From Syntrophorhabdaceae bacterium (GTDB lineage: Bacteria > Desulfobacterota > Syntrophorhabdia > Syntrophorhabdales > Syntrophorhabdaceae): 36,857 nucleotides of DNA. The position numbers and the translations under genes are program-made. The DNA lies in assembly GCA_035541755.1 (NCBI GenBank), contig DATKMQ010000041.1, forward strand, positions 1 to 36,857. The letters are read 5' to 3'. The notes beneath the pieces are model-generated. The model searched no databases. It was not told the DNA's origin and saw only the letters and a program-made list of their open reading frames with translations. This document shows positions 1 to 8,013 of the stretch, piece after piece (the stretch's first letter is position 1; each line of letters starts with the position of its first letter).

Positions 1-1213
1 GTGGTGTAAAGAAAAAGATAAGTTCTTGATTATAGATTGCTGGGACAATTTTGACTATTTTCAAATGAATCCAACCGGGAAAATCGATAAGCCATCAAAA
101 CCAATTCCGGTCCGACTCTTTGAAACCAGACTGGAAAAACTTAATGTCGCCGAAACAAAGAACGATACGGCGCTTATTGAGAAGACAATTAAGAAACTCC
201 AAGAAGATATTAGCGAGCTTCCGCCTAATAATGTCGTGATCCTCGATGCCAAAAGCAAATTAGAAAAACTTGACGCAACCTTTTGGCAAAAGCTTAATGA
301 TGACAAAAAACTTTATTTAGAGATAGAAATTGCTCCACTAATGCGGACACGCACGGGGGAAGATTTCAAAGCAATGAGCTTTGAACTTAAGGTTCTCCAC
401 TACTCCATAGCAAAGCTCGGTTCGAGCGATGAAAAAGACAAAAAAGTAAAGACCCTCGAAGAAGTCATAATTGAAATGGTTTCCGATCTGCCTCTTATGG
501 TCAACGTTGTTGCCAAAGAAAAAAACCTTATCGAAGAAGTGCTTCATAATAACTATTTGGCAAAGGCAAGCGATGAAGATTTGGAAGTCTTGATCCAGAA
601 AATAGCGCCACTCATGAAATACCGGGAAGAAGGGATTAAACCAGATCAGACTGCTGTGGATTTTCGGGACATTACCAAAGAAAAAGAGTACATTAAATTT
701 GGACCAGCCCATGAACGATTGACTATTCAAAAATATCGGGAAAAAGTCGAGGCACTTATCAAGAAACTGGAAGAAGAAAATGAAATACTACGAAAAATAA
801 AAAAAGGTGAAGAGATAACGCAAGAAGAAGTGGGAGAACTGGCAAATACCCTGGCTAAATACGAGCCCTATCCAACAGAAGAGAATTTACAAAAAGCCTA
901 TGACGCCCGGATGGTGAAATTCTTGGACCTCATTAAGTACATTATGGGTATTGGCGGACTGGTTACTTTTTCGGAAAAAGTGTCCGAGTCGTTTGCGGAA
1001 TTTATCGCGGAACATAACACAATGACCGCTAAGCAAATCCAATTTCTGCAAACTTTGCAAACGTTCATTATAGAGAATGGGAAATTAACCAAGAAAGACC
1101 TGGTGCGTGAGCCATTTACGAAGCTTCACGCTAATGGCTTTTTAGGACTCTTTCCACCGATGATGCAACAAGAAATTCTAAAATTTACTAATAACATCTT
1201 ACATTATGCTTAA
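1..1213 (+). CDS. hsdR: Type I restriction endonuclease subunit R, C-terminal part (5' end outside window)
   Basis: This is the motor and nuclease subunit of a type I restriction-modification system, which translocates DNA with an ATP-driven helicase and cleaves unmodified foreign DNA. Only the last ~403 codons are present: the reading frame is open from base 2, so the true start lies to the left. The first visible residues (IIDCWDNFDYFQMNP) match the conserved segment that follows the helicase core in HsdR. The rest is helical and rich in Lys and Glu, like the C-terminal domain that docks onto the methylase. The stop codon overlaps the hsdM start by 8 bases, so the two are translationally coupled. 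Base composition is AT-rich, unlike the genes beyond position 6740. Family assignment is strong because hsdM and hsdS follow directly. Confidence 0.9.
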   Translation, partial: WCKEKDKFLIIDCWDNFDYFQMNPTGKIDKPSKPIPVRLFETRLEKLNVAETKNDTALIEKTIKKLQEDISELPPNNVVILDAKSKLEKLDATFWQKLNDDKKLYLEIEIAPLMRTRTGEDFKAMSFELKVLHYSIAKLGSSDEKDKKVKTLEEVIIEMVSDLPLMVNVVAKEKNLIEEVLHNNYLAKASDEDLEVLIQKIAPLMKYREEGIKPDQTAVDFRDITKEKEYIKFGPAHERLTIQKYREKVEALIKKLEEENEILRKIKKGEEITQEEVGELANTLAKYEPYPTEENLQKAYDARMVKFLDLIKYIMGIGGLVTFSEKVSESFAEFIAEHNTMTAKQIQFLQTLQTFIIENGKLTKKDLVREPFTKLHANGFLGLFPPMMQQEILKFTNNILHYA

Positions 1214-2726
1214 TGCAACCCTTAAATCATCAATCGGACGGCTTTGGGATAAATTTTGGAGCGGTGGTATTTCTAATCCGCTGACGGCTATTGAACAAAT
1301 ATCCTATTTGCTTTTCATGAAGCGATTAGATGAGTTGGACATAAAGAAGAAACACGATTCAGAATTTACCGGGGAAGGCTATGAATCAATCTTTGAAGGG
1401 GAGAATGAAGAATTGAGATGGAGCCACTTCCGGCAAATGGAAGGCGGGGAGATGCTCACGCACATCCAAAGTAAAGTCTTTCCATTTCTCAAGAATTTAG
1501 GAACAGAAGAGAGCCACTTTGCTAAGCATATGGGCAATGCTGTTTTCATAATTTCCAAACCCTCGCTCCTAGTTGAAGCTGTGAGCATCATTGATGACAT
1601 TTTTGAAGAGATTTCCAAGCAAGAATCAGAAGGACAAGGTTTCCAAGATACACAAGGCGATTTATATGAGTACTTACTTTCAGAAATTACAAGCGCCGGT
1701 AAGCTTGGCCAGTTTCGCACTCCACGCCATATTATCCAGCTCATTTGCGAACTGGTTGATCCTAGACTAGGAGACACCATTTGTGATCCGGCTTGCGGTA
1801 CAGGAGGATTTTTACTTGGCGCGTATCAACACATTATTACCGCACATACCAGCAAGGAACACCAACAGACCGATGAGAATGGGCTGACTAGGGGTCTTCT
1901 TGGCGATAAGCTCACCAACGAAAAACAATGGAAACATCTTAAAGAAAAAACGTTCTACGGATTCGATATGGACGAAAGTATGGTCCGAATCGGTCTAATG
2001 AACCTCATGATGCACGGAATATCTAGCCCAAATATTGAACAAAGAGATACGCTTTCGAAAAAATATAATGAAGATAGTCATTATGATGTAATTATGGCTA
2101 ATCCTCCCTTTAAGGGCAGTATAGATAAAGGTGATATTAATGAATCGCTTTCCCTTGCCACAACTAAAACCGAGCTCCTGTTTGTAAATAGAATTATTAA
2201 TTCTCTCAAGATTGGTGGCCGAGCGGGCATGATTGTGCCGGATGGCGTTTTGTTCGGGTCAAGCAATGCTCATAAGCAAGCTAAGAAGATGCTGCTTGAT
2301 GATTGTGAGTTGCAATGTATTGTGTCGATGCCCAGTGGTGTGTTTAAGCCCTATGCCGGAGTGAGCACGGCTATTTTGATATTTGTTAAAAGAGGCCAGA
2401 CAGGAAAAGTCTGGTTTTATGACATGCAATCCGACGGATTCAGTCTGGATGATAAACGCACAAAGATAAACGGCGGCGGCGATCTACCAGATATCGTAGA
2501 AAAGTGGAAGCATCGAAAGAAACAGACCGAAAACGATCGAAGCAGCAATTTCTTTTGGGTCGAGAAGAAAGAAATTGAAAAGAATGGCTTTGATTTGAGT
2601 ATCAATCGTTATAAAGAAGCGGAATATGAAGAAGTTGAATATGAAGATCCAAAAGTCATCTTGGCAAAAATTGAGGCGATCGAAGAAGAAATTATGGCGG
2701 GAATCAAGGATTTAGAGCAAGTATGA
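1206..2726 (+). CDS. hsdM: Type I restriction-modification DNA methyltransferase subunit M
   Basis: This is an N6-adenine DNA methyltransferase, 506 residues, a normal length for HsdM. Two HsdM with one HsdS form the modification enzyme that protects host DNA; adding HsdR makes the restriction complex. The N-terminal helical HsdM_N domain covers roughly residues 1-150. The S-adenosylmethionine-binding motif I (DPACGTGGF) starts at residue 194 and the catalytic NPPF motif IV is at residues 299-302, so the enzyme looks intact. The start codon overlaps the end of hsdR, and hsdS begins 7 bases after the stop. What is seen is the motifs and gene order; the recognised DNA sequence cannot be read from the protein. 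Confidence 0.96.
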   Translation: MLNATLKSSIGRLWDKFWSGGISNPLTAIEQISYLLFMKRLDELDIKKKHDSEFTGEGYESIFEGENEELRWSHFRQMEGGEMLTHIQSKVFPFLKNLGTEESHFAKHMGNAVFIISKPSLLVEAVSIIDDIFEEISKQESEGQGFQDTQGDLYEYLLSEITSAGKLGQFRTPRHIIQLICELVDPRLGDTICDPACGTGGFLLGAYQHIITAHTSKEHQQTDENGLTRGLLGDKLTNEKQWKHLKEKTFYGFDMDESMVRIGLMNLMMHGISSPNIEQRDTLSKKYNEDSHYDVIMANPPFKGSIDKGDINESLSLATTKTELLFVNRIINSLKIGGRAGMIVPDGVLFGSSNAHKQAKKMLLDDCELQCIVSMPSGVFKPYAGVSTAILIFVKRGQTGKVWFYDMQSDGFSLDDKRTKINGGGDLPDIVEKWKHRKKQTENDRSSNFFWVEKKEIEKNGFDLSINRYKEAEYEEVEYEDPKVILAKIEAIEEEIMAGIKDLEQV

Positions 2727-2733
2727 ATGTTAT

Positions 2734-3858
2734 ATGATTTTACAAAGAAAAAAACTTGGTGAAATTATTAAATTAGAATATGGCAAACCCTTGCCTGAAT
2801 CGGAAAGAAAGTTAAGGGGTTCCTATCCAGTTTATGGTGCCAATGGAATAAAAAGCTATAGCGATCTTAGCTATGTTAACCATCGCAGTATTATCGTTGG
2901 AAGAAAAGGATCGGCAGGTGAAGTAAATCTAACTGAAGAGAAATTTTGGCCTCTAGATGTTACATACTTCGTTACCTACGATGAGAAGAAGTACGATCTG
3001 GGGTTTCTATACAGACTTCTCTCGTCAATAAATCTACCAAAGTTAGCGAAAGGAGTTAAGCCTGGTCTCAATCGAAACGATGTTTATTCGATATCGGTTG
3101 AAATTCCTAGATTAATTGATGATCAGAAAAAAATCTCTCAAGTGATTGATGCAGTAGATACACTTCGGTCCAAACGTAGACAGGCGATTGAGCTTTTGGA
3201 TGATTATTTGAAGTCTGCATTCCTGAAAATGTTCGGAGATCCGGTAAAAAATCCGAAGAGATGGAAAACTGAAAGATTAAACGATGTCTGCGATCGCCTT
3301 AGCGACGGCCCGTTTGGATCAAAACTAAAAACTGAGCATTATGTAGATAACGGGATTAGGGTTATAAGGCTTCAGAATATTGGAATAAACAAGTTTAAGG
3401 ATAACGATAAAGCATTTATCTCGGAGACTTACTATAACAGTGACTTGAGCAAATATACGTGTAAGGCAGGTGAAATAGTTATTGCAACATTGGGAGATCC
3501 AAATATCAGAGCTTGTCTCATTCCTGATTATATTCATTTATCGGTTAATAAGGCCGACTGCATACATTGCATCCCTGACAATGAGTCAGTAAATTCTGAA
3601 TATCTGCTATCATTGCTAAATCTTCCGCAATTCCACCACTCATTTACCAGTTTAACTCACGGAGAGACCAGAACTAGAGTGAGTTCTGGTCAGCTCAAGA
3701 ATATTCAAATCCCGTTGCCCAAGATGGAACTTCAGAACAAATTCGCCGAAGTGGTTGTGAAGAGTAAAGAAACGAAACAAAAAATGCTCTCTCAATCCGA
3801 AGAACTAGAAAATCAATTTCAAGCCTTGATGCAGAAAGCATTCAAGGGGGAGTTATGA
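2734..3858 (+). CDS. hsdS: Type I restriction-modification specificity subunit S
   Basis: This is the DNA-recognition subunit of the type I system, 374 residues. It shows the usual plan of two target-recognition domains (about residues 5-125 and 170-320). They are separated by a conserved helix near 130-165 (around KISQVIDAVDTLRSKRRQA) and followed by a second helix at the C-terminus (LENQFQALMQKAFKGEL). These coiled helices set the spacing between the two half-sites. Each domain recognises one half of a bipartite site. The gene lies 7 bases after hsdM. The reverse transcriptase gene starts about 46 bases after its stop, on the same strand and with no visible terminator between, so it is probably in the same transcript. 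Confidence 0.94.
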   Translation: MILQRKKLGEIIKLEYGKPLPESERKLRGSYPVYGANGIKSYSDLSYVNHRSIIVGRKGSAGEVNLTEEKFWPLDVTYFVTYDEKKYDLGFLYRLLSSINLPKLAKGVKPGLNRNDVYSISVEIPRLIDDQKKISQVIDAVDTLRSKRRQAIELLDDYLKSAFLKMFGDPVKNPKRWKTERLNDVCDRLSDGPFGSKLKTEHYVDNGIRVIRLQNIGINKFKDNDKAFISETYYNSDLSKYTCKAGEIVIATLGDPNIRACLIPDYIHLSVNKADCIHCIPDNESVNSEYLLSLLNLPQFHHSFTSLTHGETRTRVSSGQLKNIQIPLPKMELQNKFAEVVVKSKETKQKMLSQSEELENQFQALMQKAFKGEL

Positions 3859-3904
3859 CCCATGACTAAACCAAAATTGACCAAGTGTGAACAAGAGTGA
3901 AAAC

Positions 3905-5404
3905 ATGAAAAACATCTTATTGTTATCAGCCAAGGAAGCAAAAGAGTTTTTCTTAAAAGAAGAAAGCTATTTTAATTTTGATTTGCCACCTTATTTCAAA
4001 TTCGATAATTTGTTGCAAAGCGTATCAAAAAAGATTAAGAACAAAAAATTATCTGATTTTTACAGCCCAAAATCAAAACCTCGTGATTTTGAGGATGTAA
4101 ATTATACGCTTATCACAAACAAAGATGGACGTTATGCTTGGCGGCCACTTCAATTAATCCATCCTGCGCTTTATGTTTATCTTGTTAATGAAATAACTGA
4201 GGATAAGAATTGGCAATACATCACAGACAGATTACGTGATTTAATTAAAAAAAGTAATGGCATCGAATGTAAAAGTTTACCCGTAATTTCTGCTTACTAT
4301 AAAAAGAACAAAGCAGCCCAAATAAAAAATTGGTCGGAGGAAGTAGAGAGAAAATCGATCATTTATAGTCTGGATTATGACTATCTTTTTCATACGGATA
4401 TTACAGATTGTTATGGATCAATATATACCCATTCAATTACCTGGGCTTTACATGATAAAGCTGTAGCCAAAAAAGAGCGCGAGAATAAAAAGCTCATTGG
4501 CAATATAATTGATTGGCAACTCCAGGCAATGTCAAACGGGCAAACAAATGGGATTTCGCAAGGAAGTGTTTTGATGGATTTTATCGCCGAAATAGTTTTG
4601 TACTATGTGGATAGTTTACTTGCTGATAAAATCAAGACTTTCAAAAAAGCAGATTATAAAATTATTAGATATAGAGACGATTACAGAATATTTAGTAATA
4701 ATCCACAGGTTGCAGAACAGATTATTAAAGAACTTACTGACATTCTTAACGACTTCGGAATGAAGATAAACTCTGCAAAAACCAAAGGTATAAATGATGT
4801 AGTGCATTCATCAATTAAACCGGACAAATTATTTTGGATGGTAAACGAGAACAAGTGTGATGATCTAAATAGTGAGATATTTTCCATTTCTGTTTTTGCT
4901 GAGAAATATCCAAATTCAGGAACTGTGGCTAAATTACTAATGAAATATTATGACAAGATATCAAAATCATCAAGAAAGGATATTAAGGCAAATATAAAAG
5001 TATTAATAAGTGTTATTACCGATATAGCTTTCAAAAATCCAAGAACATATCCGATAATTTCTGCCATCTTGAGTAAGCTGATTGATTTTATGCCAAAGAA
5101 AGATAGGGATCAGATAACAAGAAAAATTCTAAATAAGTTCAAAAAACTTCCCAATACGGGCATCATGCAACTTTGGTTGCAGAGAATAACCATCAAAACA
5201 AGCAGCAAATTTGATTATTCAGAAAAGTTATGCAGTAAGATAGATGACAATAGTGTTGTGATATGGAATTCCGATTGGCTTAAACCAAATTTGAGAAAGA
5301 TTATAGATTCATATGATCTGGTAGATAGGAAAATACTAGAAAGCTTAGGGGCCGTCATAAGTGATGAGGAAGTTTCTTTGTTTGATAAATTGGAGTATTT
5401 CTAA
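3905..5404 (+). CDS. Reverse transcriptase of the UG/Abi (defence-associated) kind
   Basis: A 499-residue RNA-directed DNA polymerase. Motif A is DITDCYGSIY with the catalytic Asp at residue 165. The motif B region is NGISQGSVLMDFIAE. Motif C is YRDD at residues 256-259, so both metal-binding Asp are kept. There is no maturase, HNH or integrase domain, and no group II intron structure was noticed around it. The ~220 residues after the palm are predicted to be all-helical, as in Abi/UG reverse transcriptases that carry a helical-repeat tail. I chose ATG 3905 because the alternative GTG at 3887 has no ribosome-binding site; the earlier start would add six residues. The gene follows hsdS in a type I restriction operon, which points to antiphage defence. 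I could not place it in a numbered DRT family by eye. Retron and diversity-generating-element roles look unlikely, as no template repeat or msr-msd was seen. Confidence 0.9.
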   Translation: MKNILLLSAKEAKEFFLKEESYFNFDLPPYFKFDNLLQSVSKKIKNKKLSDFYSPKSKPRDFEDVNYTLITNKDGRYAWRPLQLIHPALYVYLVNEITEDKNWQYITDRLRDLIKKSNGIECKSLPVISAYYKKNKAAQIKNWSEEVERKSIIYSLDYDYLFHTDITDCYGSIYTHSITWALHDKAVAKKERENKKLIGNIIDWQLQAMSNGQTNGISQGSVLMDFIAEIVLYYVDSLLADKIKTFKKADYKIIRYRDDYRIFSNNPQVAEQIIKELTDILNDFGMKINSAKTKGINDVVHSSIKPDKLFWMVNENKCDDLNSEIFSISVFAEKYPNSGTVAKLLMKYYDKISKSSRKDIKANIKVLISVITDIAFKNPRTYPIISAILSKLIDFMPKKDRDQITRKILNKFKKLPNTGIMQLWLQRITIKTSSKFDYSEKLCSKIDDNSVVIWNSDWLKPNLRKIIDSYDLVDRKILESLGAVISDEEVSLFDKLEYF

Positions 5405-5468
5405 TAACCATCATCTAATTAATTATTGACCGTCTGAGATGAAAGCTGAGAGAGAAGTATAAATAAAA

Positions 5469-5503
5469 CAAGGGGCGTTCTCAGTTAAGAAGCCCCTTTT
5501 TGT
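5469..5503. terminator. Bidirectional rho-independent terminator
   Basis: GGGGC at 5472-5476 pairs with GCCCC at 5492-5496 around a 15-base loop, with A-T pairs extending the stem. A T-run (5497-5501) follows on the plus strand. On the minus strand the hairpin is followed by a T-rich stretch (complement of 5461-5471). It sits between the ends of the convergent reverse transcriptase and primase-like genes and can stop both transcripts. Confidence 0.75.
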
Positions 5504-6295
5504 TTACGCAAATCGATAGAACGTTTTAAGGAGCGCGATGTTGGAATAAGCAACCTCGCGTTTATCACCTGGCCATTCAAACACGATACGGTCGCAGTGA
5601 GACAAAAGCTGATATTGGTTAAATGACAGGTAAGGAAGCCCGAAATTACAGACAGACTGTTTTCCGCTGTGGATTATCCGCAGGCAGTCAAACATATCCC
5701 TTGTAACCCAGACTTCCTCCCTGGGGTCGATACGGTTAAATCCGTAAAGATAACTTTCAGGGTTAAACGATGAGTGGAATTTTGGTATCCCCTCATAACT
5801 GGGTTTGTCGCCAAGTTTATCCGGCGCTTTACTTCCGTAATAGGCAACCTTCAGCCCTTGCTCATTAAACACCGTAAAAACGATATAACCGGAAAGCATT
5901 GTTTTGCCTTTGGGTTTTCCCACACCCATTTCTTCGCAGAGTTCTTGGTTAAGCCCCTGCTTTGCCATTTCCTCGCACCATTCCAGGGTATAGGTAAGAT
6001 TCAGCTCTTGCTCAATATGCTTGTCGGCATAGGTAGCCTTGTCGAGTAAAAGGTTCTTGGCATCCTGAAACTCGATCTGTTTAATCTTGGAGGCAATAAA
6101 TATTATATTGCTTCCCAGCTTGCAGGCAGGGCAATAGGAGACGTTTTTCTTATCCCCATAACATCGTATTGAGCTTTCTTTTCCACAAAAGATACAAGGG
6201 AAATTTAAGTAGCTTCCGTTGCGTTTAAATTCCAATCCGAGAAGGGTTAAAGCCTTTTCGGTGTCAATTGTTTGCATTGCTTCATTGTATTTCAT
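5504..6295 (-). CDS. DnaG-like primase with CHC2-type zinc finger and degenerate Toprim region
   Basis: A 263-residue protein resembling the N-terminal half of bacterial and mobile-element primases. The zinc ribbon is C34-x2-C37 ... C55-x2-C58, followed by the LGSNIIFIASKI helix usual in CHC2 fingers. A Toprim-like segment occupies about residues 190-250, but the expected catalytic Glu in the first strand is missing (VTRDMFDCLRI) and the usual Asp-x-Asp becomes EWPGD. It may therefore bind DNA or nucleotides without acting as a normal primase. It is far shorter than chromosomal DnaG (~600 residues) and lacks the helicase-binding domain. It is the third gene of an overlapping operon: its ATG lies inside the stop of the preceding small gene (ATGA). 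Similar proteins are common on integrated plasmids and islands. Function in this island is inferred only. Confidence 0.75.
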   Translation of the reverse strand: MKYNEAMQTIDTEKALTLLGLEFKRNGSYLNFPCIFCGKESSIRCYGDKKNVSYCPACKLGSNIIFIASKIKQIEFQDAKNLLLDKATYADKHIEQELNLTYTLEWCEEMAKQGLNQELCEEMGVGKPKGKTMLSGYIVFTVFNEQGLKVAYYGSKAPDKLGDKPSYEGIPKFHSSFNPESYLYGFNRIDPREEVWVTRDMFDCLRIIHSGKQSVCNFGLPYLSFNQYQLLSHCDRIVFEWPGDKREVAYSNIALLKTFYRFA

Positions 6296-6447
6296 TTCTT
6301 GCCTCCTTTGACTAGCTTTAGGCGTCTTCTGACCAGCAGAACAATTATTTCTGAATTGGTGTACCAGAATAAGGAAGTGTCTTTGCCGTCTTTGATGGTT
6401 CTTTGAGGTTCTCCTAAAACCTGTTTGATTTTTTGGATGGTTTTCAT
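6292..6447 (-). CDS. Small protein of unknown function (51 aa) in the primase operon
   Basis: Not recognised. The product begins MKTIQKIKQVLGEP and ends VRRRLKLVKGGKK; it is strongly basic, with a short hydrophobic strand (EIIVLLV) before a Lys/Arg-rich tail. The start overlaps the stop of the upstream 48-codon gene by one base (TAATG), and its own stop overlaps the primase-like start (ATGA). The two precise overlaps are the main reason to believe it is translated. A basic protein this small next to a primase-like gene could bind nucleic acid, but that is a guess. Confidence 0.65.
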   Translation of the reverse strand: MKTIQKIKQVLGEPQRTIKDGKDTSLFWYTNSEIIVLLVRRRLKLVKGGKK

Positions 6448-6593
6448 TACTCGTCCGATAAAGCTTTGAGAACTGCCCGGTAAATTATCTTGAGCAATCT
6501 TTGTTTTTCCACGGGGTGAAGGATGACGTTAGGATGGTCCGGCTTGGTTATGGTTAGTTCTCCGTCAATGTAGGTTAAAATGCAGTCGTCCAT
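6447..6593 (-). CDS. Small protein of unknown function (48 aa), first gene of the primase operon
   Basis: Not recognised. The product begins MDDCILTYIDGELTITKPDH and ends YRAVLKALSDE: a likely beta-hairpin followed by a helix. A perfect ribosome-binding site (AGGAGG, five bases before the ATG) decides the start. The stop is shared with the start of the next gene by one base. It lies about 70 bases from the 3' end of the tRNA-Arg gene, which is transcribed in the same direction, so readthrough from the tRNA promoter could express the operon. No separate promoter was convincing. Confidence 0.65.
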   Translation of the reverse strand: MDDCILTYIDGELTITKPDHPNVILHPVEKQRLLKIIYRAVLKALSDE

Positions 6594-6600
6594 GAGTTCC

Positions 6601-6665
6601 TCCTAAGAGTACCCAACGAAACTACCCAACATTTTAAAGGGGGGATTGTAAATGGTTGATAGAAG
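6601..6665. other. Island/tRNA junction with two GTTGGGTA direct repeats
   Basis: This short gap between the small-gene operon and the 3' end of tRNA-Arg is where a tRNA-targeting island would be joined to the chromosome. On the minus strand it carries two copies of GTTGGGTA 13 bases apart (plus strand about 6609-6630). The repeats could be operator or recombinase arm sites. No second copy of the tRNA 3' end is present in the window, so the attachment core cannot be defined. Confidence 0.4.
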
Positions 6666-6739
<74 letters not shown>

Positions 6740-6748
6740 GTGGTTGTA

Positions 6749-6777
6749 ATTATAGACGTTTTGCTCTCTCTTTTCAA
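6749..6777 (-). promoter_or_regulatory. Sigma-70-type promoter of tRNA-Arg
   Basis: On the minus strand TTGAAA (complement of 6772-6777) and a perfect TATAAT (complement of 6749-6754) are separated by 17 bases. The -10 box ends 9 bases before the mature tRNA 5' end, so the precursor leader would be very short. Confidence 0.75.
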
Positions 6778-6797
6778 TCGCAAAACACGTGAAGAAC

Positions 6798-6888
6798 GCC
6801 TTACAGGCCGCATCCCCTCTTGAACGGGGCTTAAGGCGACATCCCAAGTATCCAGAGAGGCCATTTGCTATCGGTTTGGCCCCTTAAG
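6798..6888. other. Possible structured RNA or leader with alternative hairpins
   Basis: Within the ~280-base gap between tRNA-Arg and the bS22-type gene, GCCTTA (6798-6803) can pair with TAAGGC (6832-6837), enclosing CCCC/GGGG (6814-6817 with 6826-6829). The same strand of that stem, CTTAAGG (6830-6836), can instead pair with CCTTAAG (6882-6888), enclosing GGCCA/TGGCC (6859-6863 with 6877-6881). The two folds exclude each other. No coding region was found here. Whether it is transcribed is unknown. Confidence 0.35.
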
Positions 6889-6931
6889 TTGCTTCTATTT
6901 ACCCACATAGTCCAGGGCTCTCATAATATTC

Positions 6932-6960
6932 TTGCAAAAAAACCTGAGTAAGGTTATCTT
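6932..6960 (+). promoter_or_regulatory. Candidate promoter for the bS22-type gene
   Basis: TTGCAA at 6932-6937 and TATCTT at 6955-6960 are 17 bases apart, 65 bases upstream of the small ribosomal protein start. The -10 box is imperfect. Confidence 0.4.
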
Positions 6961-7024
6961 GTTAGCGTTCGCGATTTCCGGTTTACTTAAGATGCGTCCT
7001 TTTTAAACATGACGAGGTGACTGA

Positions 7025-7117
7025 ATGGGCAGTGTAATGAAGTGGAGAAAAAAGAAAATCAGGAAACACAAATACAGAAAACTAAGAAGAAGAACGAGAC
7101 ATCAACGGAGAAAGTAG
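7025..7117 (+). CDS. bS22/AURKAIP1-COX24-type small ribosomal protein (30 aa)
   Basis: The 30-residue product starts MGSVMKWRKKKIRKHKYRK and ends in an Arg/Lys-rich tail (RTRHQRRK). This matches the compact family that contains the mycobacterial 30S protein bS22 and the AURKAIP1/COX24 domain: an MGSV start, then alternating basic clusters with the conserved RTR-x-QRRK ending. In that family the peptide binds 16S rRNA near the decoding centre. A ribosome-binding site (GAGGTG) lies about 8 bases before the ATG. The gene is convergent with nfo and their 3' ends overlap by 16 bases. It is easily missed by gene finders because of its length. Function follows from family likeness, not from context. 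Confidence 0.8.
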   Translation: MGSVMKWRKKKIRKHKYRKLRRRTRHQRRK

Positions 7118-7914
7118 GAGCGCATAACGCGCATATTTTCTTCATCCATGTTGCCCATCTTGGGGGTTTCCATGACGCCCCCCAGATGGGCAAACCTTTT
7201 GTCGTTAATAAGAGATCGAAAAAAACCCTTCCCGATTTGGCCCTTGCCGATATGCCAGTGACGGTCTATCCGGCTCGCAAGGGCAGTCTTTGAATCGTTG
7301 AGGTGAAAGACGCCTATTTTGTGAGGCCCGAGCTTCTCCTCCACGCCGGTGAGAAACGCATTCCATGTCTTTTTTACACGTATGTCGCAGCCTGATTGAA
7401 ATAAGTGCGCCGTATCGATACAAATAAAGACCATCTCCTTTCTCTCCACACGTTCATAGATTAAGGCAAGCTCGTCCGCATCTTTGCCGATGGCCGTACC
7501 CTGGCCGGACGAATTCTCAAGCAAAATTTTCAGGTCGTGCCGTTCATGCACCCTGTTTATCGATTCCGCGATCATATTGACGCCGGTCGTCTTGTCCGTC
7601 CTCGTCCCGCAGTGTGCCACAAGGCCATCAAGACCAAGTGTAGCACAGAGCCCGGCCTCGTGCACAAAGGCTTTGAGATTGCGCTCGTCCTCATCGATCT
7701 TCGCAAGATTCGGCAAATAGGAGAGATGGCCGAAGACCATGATCTCTTTGTGGAGCTTGCGAAACGCATCAATTTCTTCATCCTTCCACGTTTTATACTC
7801 CCATGACCGGGGGTTCTTGAGAAAGACCTGGATTACCTGGCAGCCAAGCTTTTTCGCCTGCTCGAAAGTGCGTGCGAAGCCTTTTGATATGGGCATATGA
7901 AAACCTATTTTCAT
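7102..7914 (-). CDS. nfo: Endonuclease IV (AP endonuclease)
   Basis: A 270-residue TIM-barrel enzyme that cuts DNA 5' to abasic sites in base excision repair, using three metal ions. The start MKIGFHMPISKGF, the HCGTRTD segment, the metal-binding FHLNDSK motif and the late RHWHIGKGQIG motif are the usual endonuclease IV signatures, in order. I chose the ATG at 7914 because the conserved N-terminal strand begins there; an upstream extension in the same frame (to 8004) has no family character. The 3' end overlaps the convergent bS22-type gene by 16 bases. The gene is divergent from the phosphofructokinase gene, with ~100 bases between them. Chromosomal GC content resumes here. Confidence 0.93.
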   Translation of the reverse strand: MKIGFHMPISKGFARTFEQAKKLGCQVIQVFLKNPRSWEYKTWKDEEIDAFRKLHKEIMVFGHLSYLPNLAKIDEDERNLKAFVHEAGLCATLGLDGLVAHCGTRTDKTTGVNMIAESINRVHERHDLKILLENSSGQGTAIGKDADELALIYERVERKEMVFICIDTAHLFQSGCDIRVKKTWNAFLTGVEEKLGPHKIGVFHLNDSKTALASRIDRHWHIGKGQIGKGFFRSLINDKRFAHLGGVMETPKMGNMDEENMRVMRSYFLR

Positions 7915-8013
7915 TAACTCTCGCTTTCTGACCGCGCCCATTCTGTGTGGGCCGTAACAGGATATGATAAAAAGTCTTGCAAATAAAGCGAGAAAGATGC
8001 ACAATTAGAAAAT

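Follow-up and report, generated by a model that had tools for sequence, protein, structure and literature searches.

The Abi-P2 polymerases are known from P2-like prophages. In E. coli, Abi-P2 is the product of a single prophage gene and confers resistance to phage T5 (PMC11077055). Work on the solved protein (PDB 7R08) has established that Tyr61 primes DNA synthesis whereas Tyr46 does not, and that the Y61F substitution abolishes activity; the trigger of Abi polymerases and the role of the random DNA that they make are still open questions (PMC9508834). A separate line of research concerns defence genes lodged within the operons of type I restriction systems (hsd). The type I enzyme of EcoprrI silences PrrC, whose gene is part of the same operon, and the phage protein Stp releases it (PMC3874165; PMC2610378). 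TgvAB, found in a type I operon on VPI-2 of V. cholerae, protects without HsdR activity (PMC11411939), and in E. coli (EPEC) darTG2 is located between hsdS and hsdR, at a site regarded by the authors as a potential recombination hot spot (PMC12255303). HEPN genes have also been reported within hsd operons, AbiA has been noted in an operon with restriction-modification genes (PMC3710099), and an AbiK has been noted in a restriction-modification neighbourhood (PMC8934634). In the literature on Abi-P2 and restriction, taken without the 2022 UG/Abi survey of Mestre and colleagues, we found no account of Abi-P2 beside type I operons.

The stretch of DNA analysed here (the window) comprises 36,857 nucleotides of contig DATKMQ010000041.1 (assembly GCA_035541755.1) from a Syntrophorhabdaceae bacterium of the phylum Desulfobacterota. 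ORF calls and profile searches give the gene order hsdR-hsdM-hsdS-RT, all on the + strand, where RT is a reverse transcriptase gene at 3905-5404. The contig begins inside hsdR, so that only the C-terminal part of this gene is present (2-1213; PADLOC REase_I, E=1.9e-29, profile positions 712-1095 of 1107; Pfam EcoEI_R_C, 6.6e-25). Next comes hsdM, coding for a type I N6-adenine methyltransferase (1206-2726; Pfam N6_Mtase, 1.9e-62, and HsdM_N, 2.3e-15; PADLOC MTase_I, 3e-180) and sharing its first 8 nt with the end of hsdR. It is followed by hsdS, whose product is a specificity subunit with two target-recognition domains (2734-3858; Pfam Methylase_S, 7.4e-24, in two stretches; PADLOC Specificity_I, 5.5e-70). 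When the assembly was searched with PADLOC families for further HsdR pieces, only the piece in the window was matched; a search with the HsdR of a relative gave no match and carries no weight. As the contig boundary removes the 5' part of hsdR, the restriction half of the operon may be dead.

Two candidate start codons can be proposed for the RT, ATG at 3905 (499 aa) and GTG at 3887 (505 aa), placing it 46 or 28 nt after hsdS, respectively. The ATG start (MKNILLLS) agrees with the consensus start of the family and is preceded by a GAG-like Shine-Dalgarno sequence, as judged by eye. Counted from this ATG, the distance is exactly that given, as about 46 bases on the same strand, by the original prediction made from the sequence of this locus. 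The gap itself (3859-3904, + strand) holds a mini-ORF of 12 codons at 3863-3901.

The RT proves to be a typical member of the Abi-P2 family. Its match to the PADLOC AbiP2 model reaches 653 bits (E=6.7e-197) and spans residues 5-501 of 505 against model positions 2-485 of 489, while RVT_1 is the only Pfam domain found in it. Among solved structures, its best relative is Abi-P2 (7R08, E=1.2e-89), and identity to the Abi-P2 proteins of P2-like prophages (7R08; P2-EC30, P2-EC58) amounts to 34-35% over 98-99%. The strength of the AbiP2 match rules out a new RT class. The next PADLOC families are Drt6, Drt4 and UG14 at 165-179 bits; AbiK gives 91 bits. DRT4 and DRT6 are the next closest RT families by both profile and structure and have no operon context in common with the window RT; membership in either of them is excluded by score, the curated Drt4 model giving 133 bits against a cut-off of 450. 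AbiA and AbiK are Abi polymerases as well but represent different RT families, AbiA with a HEPN domain and AbiK forming hexamers.

The predicted priming tyrosine, Y36 in GTG numbering or Y30 counted from the ATG (3992-3994, + strand), corresponds to Tyr61 of 7R08 and is a tyrosine in all 44 family members covering this position, but in none of five outgroup RTs. It sits in an LPxY motif, and the equivalent of Tyr46 of 7R08 is a variable residue before this motif. The catalytic YRDD motif is encoded at 4670-4681 on the + strand (residues 262-265, GTG numbering). The motif A aspartate, D171, as well as D264 and D265 of YRDD are kept in all rows that cover them; for the two YRDD aspartates this means all 45 covering rows. 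The original prediction had described an intact YRDD reverse transcriptase of the Abi type, and these residues, along with the nearly full-length AbiP2 match, bear this description out. Since the priming tyrosine, the YRDD motif and the motif A aspartate are all intact, the RT is very likely an active, protein-primed and template-independent polymerase, judging by homology. The AlphaFold2 model (mean pLDDT 73.7, pTM 0.74; helices after residue 305) is consistent with the Abi-P2 identity, in that it predicts an RT lobe and an alpha-helical C-terminal lobe without a thumb, as in Abi-P2. The top PDB match to the model is again 7r08 (Foldseek E=2e-23; VIA Z 27.9 over 394 residues, rmsd 20.4), where the high rmsd indicates that the RT and helical lobes are oriented differently in the model and in 7R08. 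In other words, the window RT shares with Abi-P2 of P2-like prophages the full-length homology, YRDD, the priming tyrosine and the helical C-terminal lobe. What differs is the setting: the prophage proteins are encoded by single genes in a variable spot of P2, whereas the window RT closes a type I operon.

A terminator scan detected no terminator-like site on the + strand between hsdS and the RT, as had been foreseen, and the gap region (3856-3910) folds at only -2.5 kcal/mol. The first hairpin followed by a T run (GGGGC...GCCCC, then TTTTT; -15.6 kcal/mol by folding) comes 3' of the RT at approximately 5468-5503, within the 99 nt separating the RT from the next downstream ORF; its loop is too long for the rule of the scan tool. 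This strong hairpin and T run suggest that the operon ends with the RT, and the likely terminator could possibly serve both convergent genes. Promoter-like matches within the region are uninformative (16 versus 17 expected). Going by spacing, hsdS and the RT are probably co-transcribed in the window. The idea that the RT might be a DRT2-type or other DRT templated by a non-coding RNA can be discarded. As originally predicted, a gap of 46 nt leaves no room for such an RNA; no stable fold was seen in it, the Rfam search of positions 1-8000 returned only a tRNA, and the RTs of relatives overlap the preceding gene.

Both hsd and RT genes are carried by a low-GC island (window positions 1-6664), in which the GC content is 32-44% versus about 51% to the right of the tRNA-Arg(TCT) gene (6665-6739, - strand; ARAGORN and Rfam). 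The island begins at the 3' end of this tRNA gene, and its opposite end lies beyond the edge of the contig. The 3' end of a tRNA gene is a usual entry point for integrative elements. A search for an attachment-site copy of the tRNA-Arg 3' end returned only the tRNA itself and one site with two mismatches on another contig, which means that the boundary of the island cannot be drawn. Between the RT and the tRNA gene, convergent with the former, there is an ORF of 263 aa with a DnaG/CHC2-like zinc ribbon (5504-6295, - strand). It resembles part of a primase from an integrative or satellite element.

To put the locus into perspective, Abi-P2 loci were collected from genome contigs, viral contigs, random genome draws and plasmid, phage and E. 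coli records. The random draws were genomes from the phyla of some of the initial matches, for which wider stretches were fetched, and hsd genes were called with profiles built on Pfam-verified members. After near copies and fragments had been dropped, 36 rows were left, 30 of them usable (about 2 kb or more on each side). A type I operon on the same strand is present at nine of the 30, namely the window and loci L002, L003, L004, L005, L008, L012, L112 and L113, while the remaining 21 (P2 prophages, plasmids, Bacteroidota) are without hsd. None of 20 other RT loci from the phylum of the window is hsd-linked (Fisher p 0.007 against 9/30), a control set in which several loci have short flanks and most RTs are not of the UG/Abi kind. 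Six or seven of the nine linked loci came from searches seeded with the window protein, and for this reason 9/30 should not be taken as a population estimate. Of eight usable loci from the random draws, two are hsd-linked (L112 and L113), and Bacteroidota contribute none of four. A search for hsdM relatives in viral contigs yielded a single locus that contributed nothing further. When the hsd label is mapped onto an IQ-TREE phylogeny (41 rows), a minimum of four changes is required, and well-supported branches force three of them; shuffled labels average 8.3 changes. The trait is thus clustered, but it has been gained or lost several times. The recurrence of hsd linkage, set against its complete lack at the other RT loci of the phylum, makes a chance neighbourhood unlikely. 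The original prediction had asked whether relatives of this RT repeatedly sit after hsdS. With nine of 30 loci in type I operons compared to none of 20 controls, with five HsdM lineages involved and with no fewer than those four label changes, the lack of any preference for hsd neighbours that would have told against it was not observed. The placement of Abi-P2 in type I operons therefore looks like a recurrent arrangement, one that we did not find described in the literature covered above.

How the RT is fitted into the operon varies among the relatives. The commonest order is hsdM-(x)-hsdS-RT-hsdR (L004, L005, L012 and L112; with an extra gene in L113, and also in L003). The RT start overlaps the stop codon of the preceding gene by 4 nt in four loci, this gene being hsdS in L005 and L112 (ATGA), hsdM in L008 and an AbiJ_NTD4-like gene in L113. 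In L004 and L012 the RT overlaps or abuts the end of hsdS, and in L003 it overlaps an uncharacterised ORF. On the other side, hsdR begins 1-130 nt after the RT in L003, L004, L005, L112 and L113. The linkage is loosest in L002, where 2.4 kb containing further genes of that strand separate hsdS from the RT behind it. In the window the spacing of 46 nt is looser than these overlaps and the order is different, with the RT last and hsdR first. The overlaps of start and stop codons point to one transcript and coupled translation in the relatives concerned, and a shared RT-hsd transcript is very likely there, as far as gene layout can tell.

The HsdM proteins fall into five lineages with less than 45% identity between them (L004/L012/L005/L112; L113; L002; L008; the window), and the associated HsdR proteins are of a HindI-like, a second and an EcoEI-like kind. 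Between the window and its nearest relative, L008, 62% identity is shared by the RTs but only 32% by HsdM and 22% by HsdS. The difference between the RT and HsdM values indicates that the RT changed its restriction partner, or that the partner changed around the RT. The RTs of L002 and L009 are very similar, and hsd is present at L002 only.

Several loci of the collection have neighbours of other kinds. L009 (6320-8775), whose closest relative is the hsd-linked L002, carries its Abi-P2 RT downstream of a same-strand TIR gene of the CAP12/Pycsar type, at a distance of 107 nt. On a Pediococcus plasmid (L080, 6933-11421), an MmeI-type (type IIL) restriction-methylation enzyme is encoded 200 nt after the RT on the same strand, and in L111 (9048-15636) the genes after the RT, on its strand, code for a methylase of the Eco57I type and a ResIII helicase, another restriction-like set. 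On an Enterococcus plasmid (L082, 9793-10194) an N-terminal fragment of HsdM (Pfam HsdM_N, 1.6e-15) is found 338 nt behind the RT and may be what is left of an hsd operon. The P2-like prophage pro147 (L083, 2272-5557) has two adjacent RT genes on opposite strands, one of them Abi-P2 and the other annotated as another RT.

Nor is Abi-P2 the only guest of type I operons. In viral contigs the gap between hsdS and hsdR is occupied by Abi_C (L127, L128, L141), by Abi_2 with SIR2_2 (L132), by SIR2_2 (L133), by an M78 peptidase with DUF4411 (L127) or by an integrase (L144). The Abi_C protein, 245 aa long, recurs just before hsdR in its three loci, and a similar Abi_C-type protein is encoded in L003 two genes before hsdR, adjoining the Abi-P2 RT. 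Taken together with prrC, darTG2, tgvAB and the HEPN cases, the Abi_C, Abi_2 and SIR2 occupants make Abi-P2 one among a number of guests of the abortive type in hsd operons. A guest with such activity would fit a second line of defence that backs up restriction. Like the window RT, TgvAB and DarTG2 are defence genes of foreign origin that have entered an hsd operon and are expressed as part of it, but their enzymes are different ones, a GmrSD-like restriction activity and DNA ADP-ribosylation, respectively. PrrC of EcoprrI, a type IC system, is likewise an abortive effector within an hsd operon, as the window RT and its eight linked relatives would be. Several of these relatives share its position between hsdS and hsdR, whereas the window RT follows hsdS at the operon end. 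PrrC is, moreover, a tRNA anticodon nuclease with an ABC ATPase (HEPN) architecture, which is absent from the window RT.

The original prediction went further and suggested that RT and restriction enzyme may act together, the RT for example sensing restriction failure, which is so far a conjecture. The likeness to PrrC raises the question of whether the RT is a guard of the restriction enzyme, either held inactive by HsdMS(R) or sensing it, so that an anti-restriction protein of the Ocr, ArdA or Stp type would free it to make protein-linked DNA and stop the cell. The commonest order in the relatives is the layout of an embedded abortive effector, as for prrC in EcoprrI, and recruitment has taken place independently into five HsdM lineages. 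However, a partner that binds the enzyme would be expected to track a single HsdM lineage, and the window RT, last after hsdS in an operon that starts with hsdR, does not have the embedded position. In addition, Abi-P2 at most loci has no hsd neighbour, and that of P2 works in E. coli without hsd. Five unlike HsdM partners and many hsd-free Abi-P2 genes argue against an obligate complex, and we consider a guard of this kind unlikely. Equally doubtful is the broader proposition that Abi-P2 polymerases in hsd operons are, as a class, restriction guards, which would answer with protein-linked random DNA, and so end the infection, when the type I enzyme is lost or inhibited. In that case the PrrC principle would have been invented twice, independently, the second time around a polymerase instead of a nuclease.

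At the other extreme, hsd operons, and above all the gap between hsdS and hsdR, might simply gather unrelated defence genes, the RT being there for transfer and expression only and the pairing meaning no more than membership of a defence island. This would agree with the variety of occupants of the gap in viral contigs, with the suspected recombination hot spot that houses darTG2 and with the occurrence of Abi-P2 next to MmeI-type and Eco57I/ResIII systems. Nonetheless, the codon overlaps and the recurrence of one polymerase family across lineages exceed what a loose island neighbourhood would give, and other RTs of the phylum show no such linkage, which leaves mere hitchhiking rather improbable. 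A decaying island in which the RT or the restriction enzyme is inactive would account for the incomplete HsdR, with no other piece of it found in the assembly, and for the primase-like zinc-ribbon fragment alongside. Yet the frames of hsdM, hsdS and the RT are open over their full length and keep their conserved motifs, and HsdR breaks off exactly at the contig end, as expected for an assembly matter. We therefore give very little credence to a mere remnant.

The explanation that we favour, with moderate confidence, is that a restriction operon has taken up a self-sufficient Abi-P2 abortive-infection polymerase as its second layer. The gene identity, the intact motifs, the operon-like spacing and the recurrence of the linkage in several lineages are direct observations. 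A type I operon, acquired horizontally and located at tRNA-Arg, would have gained the Abi-P2 gene at its end, and this gene would probably be transcribed with hsdRMS. By homology, its product, with an RT-like lobe and an alpha-helical lobe, would form trimers and, needing no template, synthesise single-stranded DNA whose sequence is undefined, primed by the hydroxyl group of Y30 in the protein itself. If a phage escaped restriction, this activity would be expected to abort the infection, as for the homologues. Most likely the RT acts by itself and with its own trigger, while the operon would supply shared expression and shared transfer. That hsd is not needed for its function follows from Abi-P2 standing alone in P2 prophages and plasmids and from the T5 resistance that it confers in E. 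coli. On the other hand, the tight codon overlaps in four relatives would be unneeded if the independence were complete. Defence in this recruited arrangement would have two layers, presumably restricting first and aborting second.

The arrangement adds a polymerase to the abortive effectors inside hsd operons, next to PrrC, DarTG2, Abi_2 and Abi_C. If Abi-P2 is repeatedly wired into restriction operons, restriction failure or anti-restriction proteins become a concrete candidate for its trigger. More generally, hsd operons with abortive effectors look like ready-made two-layer defences.
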